From contig JBBDQS010000059.1 in the NCBI GenBank assembly GCA_040905805.1, positions 1-38,794 on the forward strand: 38,794 nucleotides of DNA, written 5' to 3'. This stretch comes from Egibacteraceae bacterium (GTDB lineage: Bacteria; Actinomycetota; Nitriliruptoria; Euzebyales; Egibacteraceae). The translations under genes were made by a program, and so were the position numbers. Each line of letters starts with the position of its first letter. The stretch's first letter is position 1. The notes beneath the pieces are model-generated. The model was not told where the DNA came from, made no database searches, and worked only from the letters and a program-made list of their open reading frames with translations. Shown piece after piece: positions 16,026 through 35,616 of this stretch.

Positions 16026-19000
16026 TTATTCGTGTGCGAAGACGTCGGCGTTGAAAGCGCCGAGCAGGCGGGCGAGGAAGGTGGCCATCTGGTCGCGGCG
16101 GGTGGTGGCGGCGGGCTGGTAAGTGCCGTCGGGCTGGCCTTGGGCGAGGTTGAGCGCGGCGGCGGTGTCGATCGCGTCGGCGTGGACGTTGCCGGCGGGG
16201 ACATCGCTGAACCGGCCGGTCTGCGACGCGGTCAGATCAGCGCCGGTGGCGTATTCGGCGGCGCGGACCAGGAACGAGGCCATCTGGTCCCGGCGGATCG
16301 GCTGGGCCGGCCCGTAGCTGTCTGCTGACAGGCCACCCGGCCCGCCCGCGATGATGCCCGCCGCGGCCAACCGGTGGATCGCATCGTCATGGGTGGACCC
16401 TGGATTCACGTCCACGAACCGTTGCGCCCGCGGCTCCGGTAGGTCCACCCCGGCGGCCTGCAACGTACGGGCGATGAACGACGCCATCTGATCACGCCGC
16501 ACCGGCTGCGCCGGCCCGTAGCTGCCATCGGCGAAGCCCTGGGCGATCCCATGACTGGCCGCGCACGCCACCGCCTGCAGATGCGTGTCCGGTATGGAAG
16601 CCAGGTCGGTGAACCCCACGGGCGGTGCACCCTGCGGGCACGCGGCGGCGACCAGCTCCTCAGGACTCAACGGCTCGCCGGGATCCCCCGGATCCCCCGG
16701 ATCCCCGGGATCACCGGGATCACCGGGGTCTGCAGGGTCAACCTCGGTAGTGGCGCTGACCGGGTTGGACACCGGCCCCAACGTCCCGGGGGTGGTGCGG
16801 GCCCGCACCGCGAAGTGATAGGTCGTGTCCGTGTCCAACCCGACCACCGACAGCTCCACCGTCCCACCGACCTCGGGTGTGGGCGTGGGCGTGCACACCC
16901 CCCCGCACAACACCGCCGCCGCCTCGAACTGCTCAACCGTCGTGATCGGTTCGGCCGACTGCGCGACCACATAGCCCGGCGCCGACCCCCCGGCCCCGTC
17001 GCTCACCGCCGACCACGACAGCCCCACCTCGCTGGCCGACATCGCCGTCGCCGTCAGGTCGTCGATGGTGCCGATCTCGCCCGGTTCAGCCTCCACCGTG
17101 AACTCGCTCACCGACGTGACTTCCGAGGCCAGGGTGACGTCGGAGTCCTCCACGGCGTTGGCGACCGTCACCGCAACCGACCCCACCTCGACACCATCCG
17201 GCACGGTCGCGGTGATCTGCGCGGGCGACTCGACCGTGAACTCCGCCGGGACATCCCCGAACCGCACCTCGTCGACACCGGCCAGGTCGAACCCCTCAAT
17301 GGTCACCTCGTCACCGGCCCGGCCGCTGGCCGGGTCCAGCCCGGTCACCTGCGGGCGCGGGGTGTACAACTCCACCAACGCGACCCCGACGCCGCCCCGG
17401 GTGAGTTGGCCCGTGAGACCGCCGACGGCGACGACACTGCCACACCGGCTCGCGCACCCGCGGGTCAACGCCGCCGCACCGTGGCGCATCCTCGCCTGCG
17501 CCAACGCCCCCGTGACCCGCCAGCGGCCCACCTCGGCGTCGAACACCTCGCTGTGGACCATCGCGTCGTCGTCCCACATCGTGCCGGACGTCCCGCGCCC
17601 GCCGACCGCCAGCAACGACCCGTCCGCCAACACCACCACCGCATGCTCAACGCGCGGATACTCCAGATTGCGCACCGGCTGCCAAGTGTCCGTCGCAGGG
17701 TCGAACGCCTCCACCCCCGAAACCGCCCCCGCCGCGATCCCATACCCGCCGATCACCAGAGCGCGCCCGTCGGCGGCCACCGCCGCGGCATGACGATTGC
17801 GGGTCTCGGCCATCGCCGGCCCCTCGCTCCACTGCTCACCGGCCGGGTCGAACAGCTGCGCCCGCCGCGACTGGCCGAACGCACCCGTCGTGCCACCCGC
17901 CACGAGCACCCGCCCGTCACCGAGCAGCGTCGACGTGTGCCCGAACAACACCTGGTCGGTCGGCTGGCCCTCGGTCAACCGCCACTGTCCGGTATCTGGG
18001 TCGAACACCTGACTGGTCATGTCCAACCCCTGCACCCGACCGATCACCAACAGCCGTTCGTCCGCCAGCAACGTCGCCGACCCTTCCTGCGGCGCCGCCG
18101 CCATCAACGCCGGAGCAGACCAGCTGTCGGCCGCCGGGTCGTAGATCGTCGCGTGCCCCTGCGCGCTCTCGTCCAGCCCGCTGTAGCCCGCGACCAACGC
18201 CCGCCCGTCCGCCAACGGCGCGAACAGCTGAAACGATCCGATGTCGGGCGGGTCCGCCGCGTCGGCCAGCGTGTTCGTCTGCGGGTCATAGCGGACCGCC
18301 GATTTCGCGCTGTCCTCGAGGATGAGCACATCCCCCTCACCCACCACCAGCGCCTGCGCCTGGTCCGCGAACGGCAGTTCCCCCACCGGTGTCCACACCC
18401 CCGACGGCTCCACATACGCGAACGTCGCGTCAGAGTCGGCCGCCGACTGCCCCGCCGGCGTGGTTACCGTCACCGGCACGTCACCGGGCGCGCCCGGCGG
18501 CACTACCGCCATCACCCGTGTGTTCGACTCCACCCTCACCTCGTCGGCGGCCACCCCACCAAAGGTCACCGCCGAGGTCCCCGACAGGCTGTCACCGGTG
18601 ACCGACACCTCCACCCCGCCGTCGGTCAACCCCGACGCCGGGTCCACCCCCGACACCGTCGGCGCCGGCGTCACCGGCTCCAGCGACGGCGGCGCATACA
18701 CATCCGCGGTGTTGCGCCCGCAATGCAACGCCCCGCCGACCACCAACGCGCGGCCATCCGCCAACGCCGTGGCCGTATGACTCTCCCGCGGCGCACCCAT
18801 CAACCCCGCCGACCGCCACACACCCGGCGCGTTGCCCGCCACCCCATCATCCCCCGACGGGTCGAACAACTCCGCCGACACCAAACAATCGTTAGGCCAC
18901 TCGCCGCCGCCGGCCAGCAACACCGACCCATCTGCCAGCAACGTCAACGACGCCCCCGCCCCGCGGGGAGGTTGCGTGGGCAACGCCGTGGCCTGCCACA

Positions 19001-19982
19001 CCCCCGTCGCAGGATCATAGATCTCCGGGGGCGCCGGCTGCCCATCCTCGTCGGTGCCGCCCACCAACAATACCCGACCGTCCGCCAACCCCGCCACCCT
19101 AGTCGCACCGATGTTGCGGGGCTGCTGCAACCCGTCCGAGGCCTCCCACCGGCCCACCACGCCCGTCTCCGCATCCACCGGCGACGGATCGAACACCTCC
19201 ATCCCGTCTGTTGTCACATGCAACACATTGCCGCACCAGCCGGGAGGCGACTCTCCCGAACACGGCACCCCGTCAAGAACCACCATCCGGCCACCCTGGA
19301 AGTGGGGGGTGTCCGCCTGCGTCCACGTCCCCTGCTCACCCGACCCCGCCGGCGGCGGTTCGAACAGCATCTGCCCGCGCATCAACACCTGACCGCACCA
19401 CACCGGCGGACCGTCACCCCCACATTCGGGCCCGTCCAGCAACACCGCCAGAGGGGTGTCGAATGGCGCGTTGGCCACCTCCGTCCACCGCTGCCCCGCA
19501 GGTGCCGCGGGGTCGTAGATCTCGGGCACCGTGTCAGACACCAAAAACGTCCCCGAAGCCAGCACCCGTCCATCCGCCAGCCGCACCAACGAATGCCGCG
19601 CGCGCCCGTGATGCATCGGATCGGTCGCCTGCCACTCCCCGGTCGCCGGGTCGTACACCTCCGCCACCGTCGTGCCCCGCTCGCTCGGGTCATCACCCGT
19701 CACCAACACCCGACCGTCGTCCAACCGCACCGCCGCGGCGTCCGCGTGCCCCGACACCGGCTGACTCGTCGACTGCCACACCCCCACCGGCTCCGAGTCC
19801 TCCTGCGCCACCGCCGGCACCGGCGTCGGCATCGACAACCCAGCCGCCACCGCCAACAAGACCGTCACCGCCAACAGCCGATACCGCCGGCCGCCGTGAC
19901 CCTCGCCGATCACCGCCGCCCCACACCACACGCGACGTCCACGGCCACCCCGACGATCAACAACCACACAAACCCCCAACAT
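16026..19982 (-). CDS. Giant S-layer-anchored kelch/TIG/FN3 surface protein
   Basis: The product is about 1318 aa. After a signal peptide (RRYRLLAVTVLLAVAAGL, cleaved near AVAQE) come kelch-type propeller repeats with the motif LxDGRVLVxGG, in two blocks separated by an IPT/TIG domain (VSGVDPASGLTDGGVEVSVT). A second TIG (VTGLDPASGRAGDEVTIEGF), an FN3 domain (IDDLTATAMSASEVGLSWSA), a (DPG)6 linker and three SLH domains (each with RRDQMASF or RRDQMATF) follow. SLH domains bind cell-wall polymers, so this is a surface protein, perhaps a glycan binder or oxidase-like propeller without visible active site. Starts at 19994 and 19913 are possible. A 20-nt box ends 66 nt upstream. Confidence 0.88.
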   Translation of the reverse strand: MLGVCVVVDRRGGRGRRVWCGAAVIGEGHGGRRYRLLAVTVLLAVAAGLSMPTPVPAVAQEDSEPVGVWQSTSQPVSGHADAAAVRLDDGRVLVTGDDPSERGTTVAEVYDPATGEWQATDPMHHGRARHSLVRLADGRVLASGTFLVSDTVPEIYDPAAPAGQRWTEVANAPFDTPLAVLLDGPECGGDGPPVWCGQVLMRGQMLFEPPPAGSGEQGTWTQADTPHFQGGRMVVLDGVPCSGESPPGWCGNVLHVTTDGMEVFDPSPVDAETGVVGRWEASDGLQQPRNIGATRVAGLADGRVLLVGGTDEDGQPAPPEIYDPATGVWQATALPTQPPRGAGASLTLLADGSVLLAGGGEWPNDCLVSAELFDPSGDDGVAGNAPGVWRSAGLMGAPRESHTATALADGRALVVGGALHCGRNTADVYAPPSLEPVTPAPTVSGVDPASGLTDGGVEVSVTGDSLSGTSAVTFGGVAADEVRVESNTRVMAVVPPGAPGDVPVTVTTPAGQSAADSDATFAYVEPSGVWTPVGELPFADQAQALVVGEGDVLILEDSAKSAVRYDPQTNTLADAADPPDIGSFQLFAPLADGRALVAGYSGLDESAQGHATIYDPAADSWSAPALMAAAPQEGSATLLADERLLVIGRVQGLDMTSQVFDPDTGQWRLTEGQPTDQVLFGHTSTLLGDGRVLVAGGTTGAFGQSRRAQLFDPAGEQWSEGPAMAETRNRHAAAVAADGRALVIGGYGIAAGAVSGVEAFDPATDTWQPVRNLEYPRVEHAVVVLADGSLLAVGGRGTSGTMWDDDAMVHSEVFDAEVGRWRVTGALAQARMRHGAAALTRGCASRCGSVVAVGGLTGQLTRGGVGVALVELYTPRPQVTGLDPASGRAGDEVTIEGFDLAGVDEVRFGDVPAEFTVESPAQITATVPDGVEVGSVAVTVANAVEDSDVTLASEVTSVSEFTVEAEPGEIGTIDDLTATAMSASEVGLSWSAVSDGAGGSAPGYVVAQSAEPITTVEQFEAAAVLCGGVCTPTPTPEVGGTVELSVVGLDTDTTYHFAVRARTTPGTLGPVSNPVSATTEVDPADPGDPGDPGDPGDPGDPGEPLSPEELVAAACPQGAPPVGFTDLASIPDTHLQAVACAASHGIAQGFADGSYGPAQPVRRDQMASFIARTLQAAGVDLPEPRAQRFVDVNPGSTHDDAIHRLAAAGIIAGGPGGLSADSYGPAQPIRRDQMASFLVRAAEYATGADLTASQTGRFSDVPAGNVHADAIDTAAALNLAQGQPDGTYQPAATTRRDQMATFLARLLGAFNADVFAHE
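16677..16735. repeat. 9-bp tandem repeats encoding the DPG linker
   Basis: Repeated GGATCCCCC / GGATCACCG units encode DPGDPGDPGDPGDPGDPG between the FN3 and SLH domains on the minus strand. The same linker occurs in the relic at 34833-34865. Unit number could vary by slippage and change linker length without a frameshift. Confidence 0.8.
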
Positions 19983-20047
19983 CGAAACGCTCACGTCACA
20001 GGAACCCTGCTCACACCCGCTACGGCACCACACCGCCCACACCACCC

Positions 20048-20067
20048 GCAATACCGAGAATGCACTA
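20048..20067 (-). promoter_or_regulatory. 20-nt GTATTGC box, copy 3 (kelch-SLH)
   Basis: Coding direction: TAGTGCATTCTCGGTATTGC. It keeps TA and GTATTGC at the same spacing. It ends 66 nt before the ATG at 19982 and lies between the terminator of the adhesin gene and this gene. Confidence 0.6.
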
Positions 20068-20138
20068 CCACCGCCCGGACCCATGGTTTGCGTTTGGGCC
20101 GCAGGGCATCGCCCGCGCCGCACGCCGCGGCGACCTGC

Positions 20139-20201: not shown

Positions 20202-21821
20202 CTAGGGAGCGGGGGGGTAGATCTCGTGATCATTGCCCTCGGCGATCGACTGCTCCAGGCCACCGAGCAGCGACGCCCAGTCGGCGTGCACCGCGTTGGT
20301 CTGACCGCCGGCCACCATCGTGTACCAGGCGGTCGCCACGTTGCCCTGCCCACCGGCGATCGACGCGTACGGGGCACTCGTCGCGTTGCCCTCGCCACCG
20401 GTGACGGTCGACTCGCGGCCACCTGCGGTGTTCGCCTCGCCACCGGTGACCGTCGCGTGAGATCCATCAGCCACGTTGTTCAGGCCGCCAAGGACGGTGC
20501 CGTAGTTCTCGCTGGCGTTGCCGCCCTGACCGCCGAAGACCGCCCCTCGGAAGTCACTGGCGACGTTGCTCGATCCGCCGATCGCGACACTCTCCTCAGC
20601 GGTGGCCTCGTTGGAGAGACCACCCACGATAATGGACGCCTCACCGCTTGCGACACCGTTGGTGCCACCGAAGATCGCAGCTCCAGAACCCGTCGCTTGT
20701 GCGTTCTGGGAGCCGAACACTGATGAGGGCGATCCATTGGCCGTGTTGGAGAAGGAACCAGCGATGGTTGACCATTGCCCGGTCGCTGCATTGGCTCCGC
20801 CACCCATGACTGTGGAGTACTGGCCGGTCGCGGTGTTGAGCTGGCCGCCGAACACCGACGCCCAGGGGCCGCTCGCCGTGTTCGTCAGACCACTGACAAC
20901 GCCGCCCCAACTCGTCCACTCGTGCTGGTCACCCACCACGATGTAGTGCGAGCCGGTCCGTGTCGACGTGGTCTCCGACTGCTGGTTGTAACCGACGATC
21001 AGGTTACCCAGCCCGTTGGCCGACGCCGTCACGGCGTCGTCGTGGCCGTTGAGCAGCTGCAGGTTCATCCCCTCGAACACGAGCGTGTCCCGCGTCTCGG
21101 TGTTCTCCGCATCGTCGGGAGCGACCGGCACGTCCTGGCGGGTCACGCCAGCGAGCGTGGACTCAAGCGTGCCGACCCGGCCTTCCAGCTCGGTCGTGTC
21201 CAGCTCGGCCACCTGTGTTTCCAGGTCGCTCACCGTGGACGCAAGCGCCGCGTTGTCCGACTCCAACGTGTCGACCGTGCCTTGCAACTCGCCGACGGTC
21301 GTCTCCAGGCTGCCAACGGTCGTGTCCAGGGTTCCGACCGTGGTTTCCAGCTCGTCCACCCGGCTCGCCAGCGCCGCGTCGCCGCTGCCCGACTCGAGCT
21401 CGTCCACCCGCTGCGTCAACGCCGTGTTCGCCGCCTCAAGCTCATCCAGACGGGTCAGCACCGCATCCATGCCCTCCACCGTCTCGGCGGTCTGCGCTGT
21501 CTCGGCGGTCTGCGCCGTCGCGGCGTTCACGACCGGGTCCTGCCCGGACAGCGCAGCGGTGCGGTCGAGGAACGACGCCATCTGATCACGCCGGACGAAC
21601 TCAGCCGGACAGTATCCCCCGCCAGCGCAGCCCTGGGTGATGCCGGCGTCGCGCACCGCGGTGACCGCGTCGTGGTGGACGTTGCCGTCGGGAACGTCGT
21701 TGAACCCGTCGGAAGCCCACACCCCCACCGGCAACGCGACCAGCACGATCGCCGCCGCCAGCATGGCGGCCCACACCAGCCGTCGCTTCATAGCCGAACC
21801 TTCGCGTCCTTGTCTGGTCAT
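20202..21821 (-). CDS. SLH / coiled-coil / YadA-like head surface adhesin
   Basis: The product is about 539 aa. Signal peptide KRRLVWAAMLAAAIVLVALP; one SLH domain (FNDVPDGNVHHDAVTAVRDA, RRDQMASFLDR) at roughly residues 35-90; a long heptad coiled coil (about 95-215: LDELEAANTALTQRVDELES, then ELETTVGTLDTTVGSLETTV); then about 14 repeats of the left-handed beta-roll type (S-x-V-x-G-G-x-x-N-x-A-x-G, about 265-530), as in YadA/Hia heads. Trimeric autotransporters need an outer-membrane anchor; here an SLH domain takes that role, and no anchor is present. Start: ATG at 21821 (or GTG 21824) has GGAAGGG upstream; ATG 21791 is also possible. Function as an adhesin is inferred. Confidence 0.85.
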   Translation of the reverse strand: MTRQGREGSAMKRRLVWAAMLAAAIVLVALPVGVWASDGFNDVPDGNVHHDAVTAVRDAGITQGCAGGGYCPAEFVRRDQMASFLDRTAALSGQDPVVNAATAQTAETAQTAETVEGMDAVLTRLDELEAANTALTQRVDELESGSGDAALASRVDELETTVGTLDTTVGSLETTVGELQGTVDTLESDNAALASTVSDLETQVAELDTTELEGRVGTLESTLAGVTRQDVPVAPDDAENTETRDTLVFEGMNLQLLNGHDDAVTASANGLGNLIVGYNQQSETTSTRTGSHYIVVGDQHEWTSWGGVVSGLTNTASGPWASVFGGQLNTATGQYSTVMGGGANAATGQWSTIAGSFSNTANGSPSSVFGSQNAQATGSGAAIFGGTNGVASGEASIIVGGLSNEATAEESVAIGGSSNVASDFRGAVFGGQGGNASENYGTVLGGLNNVADGSHATVTGGEANTAGGRESTVTGGEGNATSAPYASIAGGQGNVATAWYTMVAGGQTNAVHADWASLLGGLEQSIAEGNDHEIYPPAP

Positions 21822-22154: not shown

Positions 22155-23873
22155 TCAACGCGGCGGCATCTGCCGACCGAGCTTCCCGCCTAGCCGACCG
22201 CCCACGCCGACCAGGCCCAACAGCACGGACACGCCTGCGACGCCACGCAACACCGAAGGGGGCACAGGGCTGGAAATGCTGCGGGCGAACGTAGCGAACT
22301 GGCGGACGAGGTCCTGCTTCTCGCTGACCTCGGTGCCCGCCCGCGTGTCGCTCCACACCGCCAACGCGCGGTCGGGGGTGGACAGCAGGCCGAGCCGCGA
22401 CCCCAGGTCGGCCATGCCACGGAAGCCGCCGAAGCCGACCCGCGAGTCGAACGGCCGGTCCGACAGCACCAGCCGATCGGTGAACGTCGCACCGGCGTCG
22501 TGCGAGAACGCCAGCGACACCGCGTTCATCACGTTCTCGTCGGCGCCGTCGCGGCGGTCGTAGTAGACGACGTCGACCCGCCCGGACGGGGCGACGTCGA
22601 GCGCGGGCAGGTACTGGGCGGTGCCGTCAGCCGGGTCGGTGTCGTTGACCCGCACCGGCGAGCTCCATGTTTCGCCATTGTCGGTGGAGCGCCACACGAA
22701 CACGTCGGCGTCGTCGTGGTGGCGGGCGTGAAACGCCGCGTACACCCGGCCCCGCTCCCGGTCGACGGCCAGGGACGGGACGTCGGGCAGGAACACGAGG
22801 ATGCGCGTCGGCGGGTTGAACGCGTCCACCGTGGTCTCCGACCACGTGCGGCCTTCGTCGCCCGAGCGGGCGGCGACCAGCTCCCACGTGCCCGGGTAGG
22901 GCGGCCCGCCGCGGCCCTCGTGCCCGCCCGCCCAGTCCAAACGGTCATCACCCAGGTCCAGGTACAACAGGTGCAGCACGCCGGCGGCGCCGACGGCAAG
23001 CGTCGGGGCGACCACCCTGGCGCGGTCGGGGTCGCTGACGGTGACCGGCTCCGTCCAGGACACACCGCCGTCGTCGGAGGACATCAGCCGGAGCGGGTAG
23101 CCGGTGTCGGGGAACGCCAGCGTGGCAGTCTCCTCGGCCTCCAGCCACGTGAGATACAGCCGGTCGGCGTCGTCGGGGTCGGCGGTCAACCCGACCTGGA
23201 AGGCAAGCTCGCCGAGCAGCCGGGACGGCTCGGACAGGGTCTGCCCGCCGTCGTCGGAGGAGGCAAGCCACACGCGGTGGGGACGGTTGCCGGTGCCCCG
23301 CAGCGTGACGAACGCCACGTGCAGCGTCCCGTCCGCCGCGAACGCCGGCTGGGGGGCGTAGCACTTGCCCTGCGGGTCCGCCTCGGGCAGCCGCGTCTCC
23401 TCGAACGTGGCGCCGCCGTCGGTCGAGACGTGCAGCGCGCAGGCGAAGTCGGGGCTATCGAGGCGGTTGCCGACCACGATGTTGGCCGGGTCGGTCGGGT
23501 TGCGGGTGACCACCGGGGAGTTGTGGCCGGACTGGTCCAGCGGGTCGCCCGCGCCCGCGTTGATGGGCAGGTTGCCGCCGGCGAGCGCCGCCTGCGGCGG
23601 ATCGTCGAGGCTGGCCGACAGCACGAGCAGTCCCGCCCCGATCAACACCAGCGCGATCCCGACCGCCGCGGCCAACCACGACCCGGCGCGTCCCTGCCGA
23701 GCCGACGGATCCCCACCATCATCGCCGGTGGCGTGCGCGGAGGAGCGTGGTTGCGGCGGGCCGGTCGCCGGCGTGCCCGCAGTCCCACGCTCAACCATCG
23801 TCGCCCACGCTCCGGCGGCAGCGTTCGCCCGTGCCAACGCCCGCCGCCCACCGCCGCCGTTCACCTGATGCAC
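22155..23873 (-). CDS. Second membrane-bound BNR beta-propeller (sialidase-like)
   Basis: The product is about 572 aa. A cytoplasmic N-terminus (1-65) leads to a membrane span WLAAAVGIALVLIGAGLLVL, then an extracellular propeller with Asp-box turns STDGGATF, SDDGGQTL, SDDGGVSW, SGDEGRTW, STDNGETW and SHDAGATF, and a C-terminal hydrophobic segment (VLRGVAGVSVLLGLVGVGG). It aligns through its length with the propeller at 11626 (DSPDFACALHVSTDGG versus DRPDFSCGLELSGDGG; GTGNRPHRVWLASS versus GPGNRPYGVYLTSS), so they are paralogs. Start uncertain: GTG 23873, GTG 23864 or ATG 23798. It lies 60 bp after the stalked protein gene, likely in one operon. Confidence 0.78.
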   Translation of the reverse strand: MHQVNGGGGRRALARANAAAGAWATMVERGTAGTPATGPPQPRSSAHATGDDGGDPSARQGRAGSWLAAAVGIALVLIGAGLLVLSASLDDPPQAALAGGNLPINAGAGDPLDQSGHNSPVVTRNPTDPANIVVGNRLDSPDFACALHVSTDGGATFEETRLPEADPQGKCYAPQPAFAADGTLHVAFVTLRGTGNRPHRVWLASSDDGGQTLSEPSRLLGELAFQVGLTADPDDADRLYLTWLEAEETATLAFPDTGYPLRLMSSDDGGVSWTEPVTVSDPDRARVVAPTLAVGAAGVLHLLYLDLGDDRLDWAGGHEGRGGPPYPGTWELVAARSGDEGRTWSETTVDAFNPPTRILVFLPDVPSLAVDRERGRVYAAFHARHHDDADVFVWRSTDNGETWSSPVRVNDTDPADGTAQYLPALDVAPSGRVDVVYYDRRDGADENVMNAVSLAFSHDAGATFTDRLVLSDRPFDSRVGFGGFRGMADLGSRLGLLSTPDRALAVWSDTRAGTEVSEKQDLVRQFATFARSISSPVPPSVLRGVAGVSVLLGLVGVGGRLGGKLGRQMPPR

Positions 23874-34689: not shown

Positions 34690-35470
34690 CGGCCAGTGCA
34701 CCACCCTGCGGTGGTCGCACCCCGACGCCGACGCCTGACGTTGGGGGGGCGGTGTCCTTGACGGTGGTCGGCCTGCAGCCCGACACGACGTACCACTATG
34801 CGGTGTGGGTCCGCACCGCCACGGGCGAGCCCGGGGATCCGGGCGACCCGGGGGATCCGGGCGACGGGGGGGCCGGCGCCGGCGGAGCTGGTCGCGGCGG
34901 CCTGTCCGGGCGGGGCGGCTGCGGCGGGGTTCGCCGACCGTGCCGCGATCCCCCAGGCGCACCTGGAGGCGGTGGACTGCGTGGCCAGCCGCGACATCGC
35001 CCGCGGGTTCGCGGACGGGACCTACGGGCCGGCGCAGGCGGTGCGGCGCGACCAGATGGCGTCGTTCATCGTGCGCACGTTGCAGGCGGCCGGGGTGAGC
35101 CTGCCGGCGCCGCGTGCGCAGCGGTTCGTGGATGTGGCGGCCGGGTCGACGCACGACACGGCGATTCACCAGTTGGCCGCGGCGGGGATCGTGGCCGGCG
35201 GCCCCGGCGGACTGTCCGCCGACTTCTACGGGCCCGACCAGCCGATCCGCCGGGACCAGATGGCCTCGTTCCTGGTGCGCGCAGCCGGCTACGCCACCGG
35301 CAGCGAGCTGACCACCGACCAGTCAGCAGGTTTTTCGGACGTGCCCGCCGGCAACGTGCACGCCGCCAACATCGACACGGCCGCAGCGCCCGGGTTGGCG
35401 CAGGGCCGCGGCGACGGCACCTACGGCCCGGCGGCGCCGGACCCGGGTGGTGTCTGGCCGGCCCGCCCGG
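34690..35470 (+). pseudogene. FN3-linker-SLH tail of a lost surface protein
   Basis: The plus strand reads TPTPDVGGAVSLTVVGLQPD then TTYHYAVWVRTATGEPGDPG, a 7-G run, then in the +1-shifted frame PAPAELVAAACPGGAAAAGF, RRDQMASFIVRTLQAAGVSL, RRDQMASFLVRAA and FSDVPAGNVHAANIDTAAAP. This matches the last 280 residues of the kelch-SLH protein. The frameshift is in the G run (34867-34873); six G would restore the frame. The third SLH domain loses its R-R-D-Q-M motif (GPAAPDPGGVWPARPG). No start or upstream domains exist; the sequence before 34690 is the divergent promoter region of the protease operon. Confidence 0.7.
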
Positions 35471-35488
35471 GTAGGTGCGTGCGTCTCA

Positions 35489-35508
35489 TAGCCACATTTG
35501 CGTATTGC
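35489..35508 (+). promoter_or_regulatory. 20-nt GTATTGC box, copy 7 (plus strand)
   Basis: TAGCCACATTTGCGTATTGC, the only copy on the plus strand, lies 108 nt before the ATG at 35617 of the broken acidic-protein copy. The orientation relative to the gene is the same as at the other six sites, which is strong support that the box belongs to the 5' region of these genes. Confidence 0.65.
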
Positions 35509-35513
35509 GACGT

Positions 35514-35584
35514 GTCCGGGGCGGGTGCAACGGTCAATCGGTGTTCGGGCGGTGTTGGGCAGTGTTCGCAACCCCGCCCCGGAC
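35514..35584 (+). repeat. 12-bp inverted repeat in leader
   Basis: GTCCGGGGCGGG (35514-35525) and CCCGCCCCGGAC (35573-35584) are perfectly complementary and enclose 47 nt holding three GTGTT repeats. It lies between the box and the ATG at 35617, so the RNA leader would fold into a long stem. It may be an attenuator or RNA-stability element. Confidence 0.5.
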
Positions 35585-35616
35585 GGTGACCCATCAGAAA
35601 GAGAAAGACGAACCCG

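Follow-up and report, generated by a model that had tools for sequence, protein, structure and literature searches.

A candidate wall-bound fibre protein with a single SLH motif, a coiled-coil stalk and a UspA1-like beta-roll in an actinobacterium of the class Nitriliruptoria

Known counterparts and the fibre gene

Trimeric autotransporters are defined by a C-terminal YadA membrane anchor, and their parts follow one another from the N- to the C-terminus as head, stalk and anchor (PMC2483945). In Veillonella, trimeric autotransporters also join trimeric adhesins with SLH; there, the SLH is C-terminal, after the YadA anchor, and the cells have two membranes (PMC7549365). In OmpM of the Negativicutes and SlpA of Deinococcus, each chain contributes one SLH, and a three-fold unit is formed together with a triple coil (PMC10628300, PMC9388160). 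The usual SLH anchor of monoderms consists of three motifs in tandem (PMC10628300).

The protein described here, hereafter called the fibre, is a new arrangement of known parts. Like OmpM and SlpA, it has a signal peptide, one SLH and a coiled coil in the same order (PMC10628300, PMC9388160). However, OmpM and SlpA end in an outer-membrane beta-barrel in a two-membrane envelope, whereas the fibre ends in a beta-roll and belongs to a genome without an Omp85 match. With the monoderm triple-SLH proteins Sap and SpaA it shares an SLH wall module, and a CsaB-like enzyme is found in its genome; those proteins have three SLH motifs and the fibre has one. Its head is of the UspA1 type as regards the 15-residue repeat, sequence similarity and predicted fold, but it is C-terminal after the stalk, without a neck, stalk or membrane anchor behind it, and its N-terminal module lies outside the UspA1 sequence match. 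The order SLH, stalk and head gives the fibre a polarity opposite to that of trimeric autotransporters, in which the head is N-terminal and the anchor C-terminal; in contrast to the Veillonella proteins, its SLH is N-terminal and there is no YadA anchor. A literature search, in which most reports were judged without their full text, yielded no report of a one-membrane bacterium in which a YadA/UspA1-like head is combined with an N-terminal SLH.

The window, that is, the whole stretch of DNA analysed, comprises 38,794 nucleotides of contig JBBDQS010000059.1 from an Egibacteraceae bacterium (assembly GCA_040905805.1). On the minus strand, a frame is open from 21866 to 20202; the ATG at 21791 probably serves as its start, and the protein begins MKRRLVW. 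Read from this ATG, the whole gene (20202..21791, minus strand) encodes 529 amino acids and a stop. A preliminary description made from the letters of the window had placed the gene at 20202-21821; the gene itself stands, and 21821 lies 30 bases, or 10 codons, upstream of the ATG. GC content at the three codon positions is 66/54/84% over 20202..21791, as expected of a real gene at such GC, and homology agrees with this indication from composition.

The first 26 residues (21714..21791; this and all parts of the fibre named below are on the minus strand) make up a signal-peptide-like stretch that ends in VWA, recognised by its hydrophobicity and modelled as a helix, with a putative cleavage site. 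A second stretch of strong hydrophobicity is absent from residues 31-529, in which the highest 19-residue Kyte-Doolittle mean is 1.1. A sortase-anchored protein is ruled out, as LPxTG is absent from the same residues. The parts and their order (N-terminal SLH, coiled coil and beta-roll) had been recognised in the preliminary description, and both sequence and model bear them out.

The adjoining gene just downstream on the same strand (16026-20123, minus) encodes Kelch repeats, TIG, a weak fn3 and three C-terminal SLH motifs. Upstream, also on the same strand, 22155-23873 encodes a BNR-repeat protein (PF13088), and a further SLH protein is encoded in the window at 34798-35589 on the plus strand.

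The beta-roll head and its relatives

The head contains 14 gap-free left-handed beta-roll repeats of 15 residues (20265..20894), delimited by repeat analysis and the structure model, with the consensus GGxxNxAxGxxSTVx. They are preceded by a family-specific N-terminal module (20895..21086), defined by the family alignment as GxNxQ..NG..GNLIVGYN..RTGSHxxVVG, and followed by an end piece (20205..20264) that terminates in -IYPPAP, is predicted with low confidence as a helix (pLDDT 42-54) and would be the free end of the fibre. Similar ends, -IYPPSP and -IPPIP, are found in the relatives L034 and L057.

When solved structures were searched with the single sequence, the best relative of the head was the UspA1 head (3PR7, E 6.3e-16), and the head family profile matches UspA1 at E 6.3e-44. 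Of the three sequence stretches matched in UspA1, two align with the head in 15-residue register without gaps. The profile match begins at position 83, after the N-terminal module; profile positions 1-56 have no solved-structure match by sequence at E <= 0.01, and the structural alignment described below begins inside the module.

The fold was read from a single-chain prediction of the head based on an alignment of 47 sequences; the full-length model, based on 21 rows, is poorer for the head. Mean pLDDT of the head model is 84. Values are 97-98 in model residues 81-180 and 77-94 over the remainder of the roll up to residue 280; they are lower in residues 21-60, which make up most of the N-terminal module (61-81), and in the last 25 residues (42-54). 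VIA-align ranked UspA1 3PR7 first, with a Z of 25.6 and an rmsd of 1.8 A over 229 residues, starting at model residue 37. BpaC (23.1), a curli subunit (20.6, third, with 10% identity) and CbpF (18.2-18.7) came next, and the ryegrass ice-binding protein 3ULT (Z 17.2 over its whole 114-residue chain) and BoaA (17.2) were found further down. The third rank of the curli subunit, which is no trimeric adhesin, shows that part of a high Z is due simply to the regularity of a roll. At E <= 0.001, Foldseek matched the head model to three proteins (BpaC, UspA1 and CbpF); their query-normalised TM-scores are 0.35-0.51. With the full-length model, BpaC was first at a Z of 19.9 but with an rmsd of 8.4; further proteins with beta-helices, among them tailspikes and lyases, came next with Z values of about 8-11, and UspA1 was not among the best 50 matches listed.

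By sequence and predicted single-chain fold, the head is related to the left-handed beta-roll of trimeric autotransporter adhesins. The roll had previously been called YadA-like, and sequence and model do place it with the UspA1/YadA type; in detail, with its 15-residue repeats, it is UspA1-like. Pfam YadA_head is not among the matches listed for the fibre protein. An OmpM-like porin was also considered and ruled out, as the C-terminal part is modelled as a beta-roll and no barrel is predicted.

The ryegrass beta-roll 3ULT is a monomer. The family profile matches it at E 1.7e-9, and the structural match has the Z of 17.2 given above. In Pfam, the isolated head is matched by a single family, PF21300 (LbR_Ice_bind), at 30.0 bits and just at the cut-off; LbR_Ice_bind matches 30 of the 54 family members, and UspA1_rep matches 11. 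These observations would suit a monomeric or dimeric version of the same wall-anchored molecule, with a single beta-roll on a dimeric coil that perhaps binds ice or sugar like the grass protein. We regard such a molecule as rather unlikely: UspA1 is the better structural match over its 229 residues, although the 114 residues aligned to 3ULT are that whole chain, and the 15-residue register is kept without gaps in two of three UspA1 stretches. Another point against it is that a few relatives join similar repeats to domains of a different kind. A collagen domain is found before the head in L034 and before similar repeats in L106, and an S74 chaperone domain follows similar repeats in L106 and L107, both of them actinobacterial proteins that are more distant. 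Collagen-like stretches as well as S74 chaperones function in trimeric form, and their presence beside similar repeats fits a trimer.

A search of genome contigs with the single protein found no relative, and no curated family that names the head protein was seen. An alignment search of named genomes detected the head at 52 loci, including 18 in Planctomycetota, 16 in Proteobacteria in the wide sense, 3 in Bacillota (two of them in Acidaminobacter), 3 of Aquificota type, 2 in Actinobacteria and 1 each in Flavobacteriales and Harrisonbacteria. The family alignment (A4) is made of 54 proteins: the fibre, L008, L002 and 51 of the 52 loci, L030 being left out. A contig end cuts L008 and L061, and the frame of L060 stops before the end of its match. 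The six invariant residues of the alignment all lie within the N-terminal head module. As judged with a loose pattern, 53 of 54 members end within 40 residues of their last repeat-like motif, with L008 and L061 cut by a contig end. Runs of at least six hydrophobic a/d positions precede the head in 18 members, none of them among the 18 Planctomycetota rows, and at least four collagen-like triplets precede it in two, L012 (4) and L034 (24). On sequence grounds, the head belongs to an uncurated family found in many phyla, in which SLH is rare, and it is not particular to the SLH-stalk-head architecture.

Within Nitriliruptoria, the head was found in 4 of 66 genomes, its own included, and a genome of the same genus (G001) had no head match. 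Of the 396 genomes sampled from the phylum, 2 matched by single sequence and 6 by profile, the own genome being counted both times.

Stalk, SLH motif and cell envelope

The coiled-coil stalk (21141..21470), delimited by periodicity tests, domain matches and the model, shows register changes and includes a segment of uninterrupted VxxLxxx heptads (21195..21377, by periodicity test). Eleven consecutive a/d positions are occupied by V, I, L or M. A run of this length was reached in none of 5000 composition-preserving shuffles of the region (best 9) and in none of 1000 shuffles of the whole protein (best 7). Absence of heptad periodicity, one of two observations that the preliminary description had named as speaking against its own reading, is excluded by the first of these tests. 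The best period over residues 149-209 of the fibre protein (P0001) is 3.4975. When the coil was tested over its full length at period 3.5, no significance was obtained (the value was reached by 1599 of 5000 shuffles), in our view because the register changes along the coil. In the AlphaFold2 full-length model, the stalk is a near-continuous helix, and its matches in PHROG, NCBIfam and Pfam are to generic coiled coils, mostly below the cut-offs where cut-offs exist. The core, with Val at a, Leu at d and Asn at one position, is compatible with either strand number and would also suit the dimeric coil considered above.

Between the signal peptide and the stalk lie a single SLH motif (21558..21710) and an Ala/Thr/Gln-rich linker, read from the sequence and predicted to be partly helical (21471..21557). 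The SLH motif is assigned by homology and is predicted with low confidence as helix-strand-strand-helix (pLDDT block means 36-63). Its Pfam score is 14.4 bits against a cut-off of 20.8, and Pfam alone would hence miss it. An HMM built from 22 other SLH motifs of the own genome (22 of 28 fetched loci, chosen by motif pattern, with some motifs repeated) matches the fibre protein at E 2.3e-21; as judged from sequence, the fibre SLH is clearly homologous to the other SLH motifs of the genome. In the PDB, the SLH stretch matched two designed SAKe proteins best (E 1e-4 and 2e-3), which we take as chance; Sap (E about 0.05) and the OmpM stalk 8BZ2 (0.77) ranked lower. The N-terminal SLH domain proposed before is thus present by homology, as one motif and not as the usual monoderm three in tandem.

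SLH motifs are numerous in this genome. A search with the SLH and linker piece of the fibre gave 111 matches, the fibre's own place included; when matches less than 450 bases apart were joined, 45 groups were obtained, 27 of three motifs, 12 of two and 6 of one. Two of the single-motif groups (C123 and C97) are at or near contig ends and another (C108) has a second motif by Pfam; the three complete cases are the fibre, a paralogue on contig C93 and a protein on contig C12. The C93 paralogue (L067 958-1971, minus strand) is 65% identical to the fibre over SLH and linker; it has a tandem low-complexity linker of the ATTADN type and another C-terminal part, without a Pfam match at E <= 0.01. After residue 60, the C93 and C12 proteins have heptad runs of 3 only, which 909 and 995 of 1000 shuffles reached. 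Without heptads above chance in these two proteins, a single SLH need not mean a trimer. The C12 protein (C12:37421-37579, L097) is small and carries one SLH motif and a second domain, which we take to resemble DUF192.

SLH was matched in only 2 of the 56 head proteins, the fibre and L008, both from Nitriliruptoria; with the SLH HMM at E up to 1, their values are 2.3e-21 and 1.9e-14, and three of the 56 (L034, L040 and L044) have cut 5' ends. L008 comes from another family of the class, in a genome that is 61% complete. A hydrophobic N-terminal stretch is followed by a single SLH, which exceeds Pfam's cut-off of 20.8 with 23.0 bits, and by an acidic, proline-rich linker. Next come a coiled coil, whose run of 8 a/d positions was reached in 0 of 300 shuffles, and the beginning of the head, at which point the contig breaks off. 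The acidic linker of L008 between SLH and coil is unlike OmpM. As L008 repeats the single SLH, the coil and the head start, the combination is no one-off assembly error.

That the fibre has one SLH motif, below the Pfam cut-off, raises the possibility that a single SLH is too weak as an anchor. The protein would then be secreted or loosely held and would act in the matrix or the medium like the SLH-less members of the family. The high number of head proteins without an SLH match (54 of 56, three of them with a cut 5' end) and the predominance of three-motif groups in the own genome (27 of 45) point in the same direction. Loose attachment is, however, unlikely in our opinion, as the single-SLH module recurs with the same head in L008 and with a different C-terminal part in the C93 paralogue, and therefore seems to be kept as a unit.

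Evidence on the wall side comes from a CsaB-like pyruvyl transferase on contig C127 of the own genome, which scores 195 bits against a family cut-off of 213 and matches PF04230 at E 7.4e-26. In the 67 genomes searched, the CsaB family is matched at E <= 0.001 in 34 and over the cut-off of 213 in none. The presence of a CsaB-like enzyme on an SLH-bearing contig supports, without proving, SLH-type wall anchoring of the fibre. Besides the CsaB-like gene (17545-18612), the stretch C127:1-20000 (L100) encodes several SLH proteins, one with SpoIID and one with CHRD and a weak Rib.

No Omp85 match was obtained in 66 Nitriliruptoria genomes, of which 33 have a completeness of 90% or more and a contamination of 5% or less; among 14 control genomes, 7 gave a match. 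For a class of the Actinomycetota, this result indicates that the host cell is most likely of the one-membrane type and upholds the Gram-positive-type host of the preliminary description. Its statement that a membrane anchor is missing agrees with the Pfam results: the YadA anchor PF03895 is absent among the matches listed for the protein (25 of 37; in a second search, all 15) and has no match in the own genome, and the control matches in E. coli. Type Vc adhesins require an outer membrane with Omp85/BamA. The missing YadA anchor, the lack of an Omp85 match in all 66 genomes and the reversed order of parts rule out a trimeric autotransporter.

Proposed assembly of the fibre

We consider the chances about even that the fibre is a secreted, wall-bound, homotrimeric and adhesin-like protein. 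Most of what the preliminary description read into the sequence is upheld, with the trimer as a proposal. Its signal peptide suggests that the chain would be exported by the Sec route. The coiled coil, in which heptads are observed, may zip three chains, and the N-terminal SLH of each chain would bind the secondary wall polymer. The three SLH motifs would probably assemble in trans as one three-fold unit, by analogy with OmpM and SlpA, which combine one SLH per chain with a triple coil. The C-terminal beta-roll, presumably trimeric as in UspA1, would be located at the free tip and serve there in adhesion to, or binding of, cells, surfaces or polysaccharide.

Several observations speak against parts of this proposal. 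For SLH assembly in trans, they are the linker found in L008 and the absence of a coil from the two other proteins with a single SLH. For the trimeric fibre as a whole, they include the match to 3ULT, the rank of the curli subunit, the modest Foldseek TM-scores, the poor match of the full-length model and a CsaB score below the cut-off; moreover, a/d runs of at least six are found in only 18 of 54 family members, and the same-genus genome has no match. A structural spacer or surface-layer component that is no adhesin and whose tip binds neighbouring surface proteins would suit an SLH-rich genome (67 PF00395 matches) and the SLH/Kelch gene that adjoins on the same strand, but it is improbable since the head gene, in 4 of 66 class genomes with the own one counted, is patchy, unlike that of a main surface-layer protein.

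Starting from the wall-bound trimer, a broader and more tentative view is that the fibre could be the mirror image of a trimeric adhesin in a monoderm actinobacterium, with an SLH unit assembled in trans and a UspA1-like tip at the C-terminus. It might then represent one wall-anchored branch of a large multi-phylum family of secreted roll-ended proteins, from which, or alongside which, the adhesin heads of pathogens would derive. If so, heads of the YadA/UspA1 type would depend neither on type V secretion nor on the presence of an outer membrane, and a cell with one membrane could display them on a stalk that is anchored in the wall and has the opposite polarity. Single SLH motifs combined in trans would likewise occur beyond the OmpM/SlpA group. 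The finding also points to a widespread head family that remains uncurated.

A phage protein was rejected as an explanation, as the head has no PHROG match at E <= 0.1 and no match in the phage set at 1e-5. The family profile touches the phage tailspike Dpo31 at E 4e-4. A plasmid search matched a hypothetical protein of Herpetosiphon and, from Halalkaliarchaeum, a 'tail fiber domain-containing protein'. Finally, two C-terminal ends are recurrent among the family loci L010-L061, namely ...DWxAGSLFED and ...IxPPxP.
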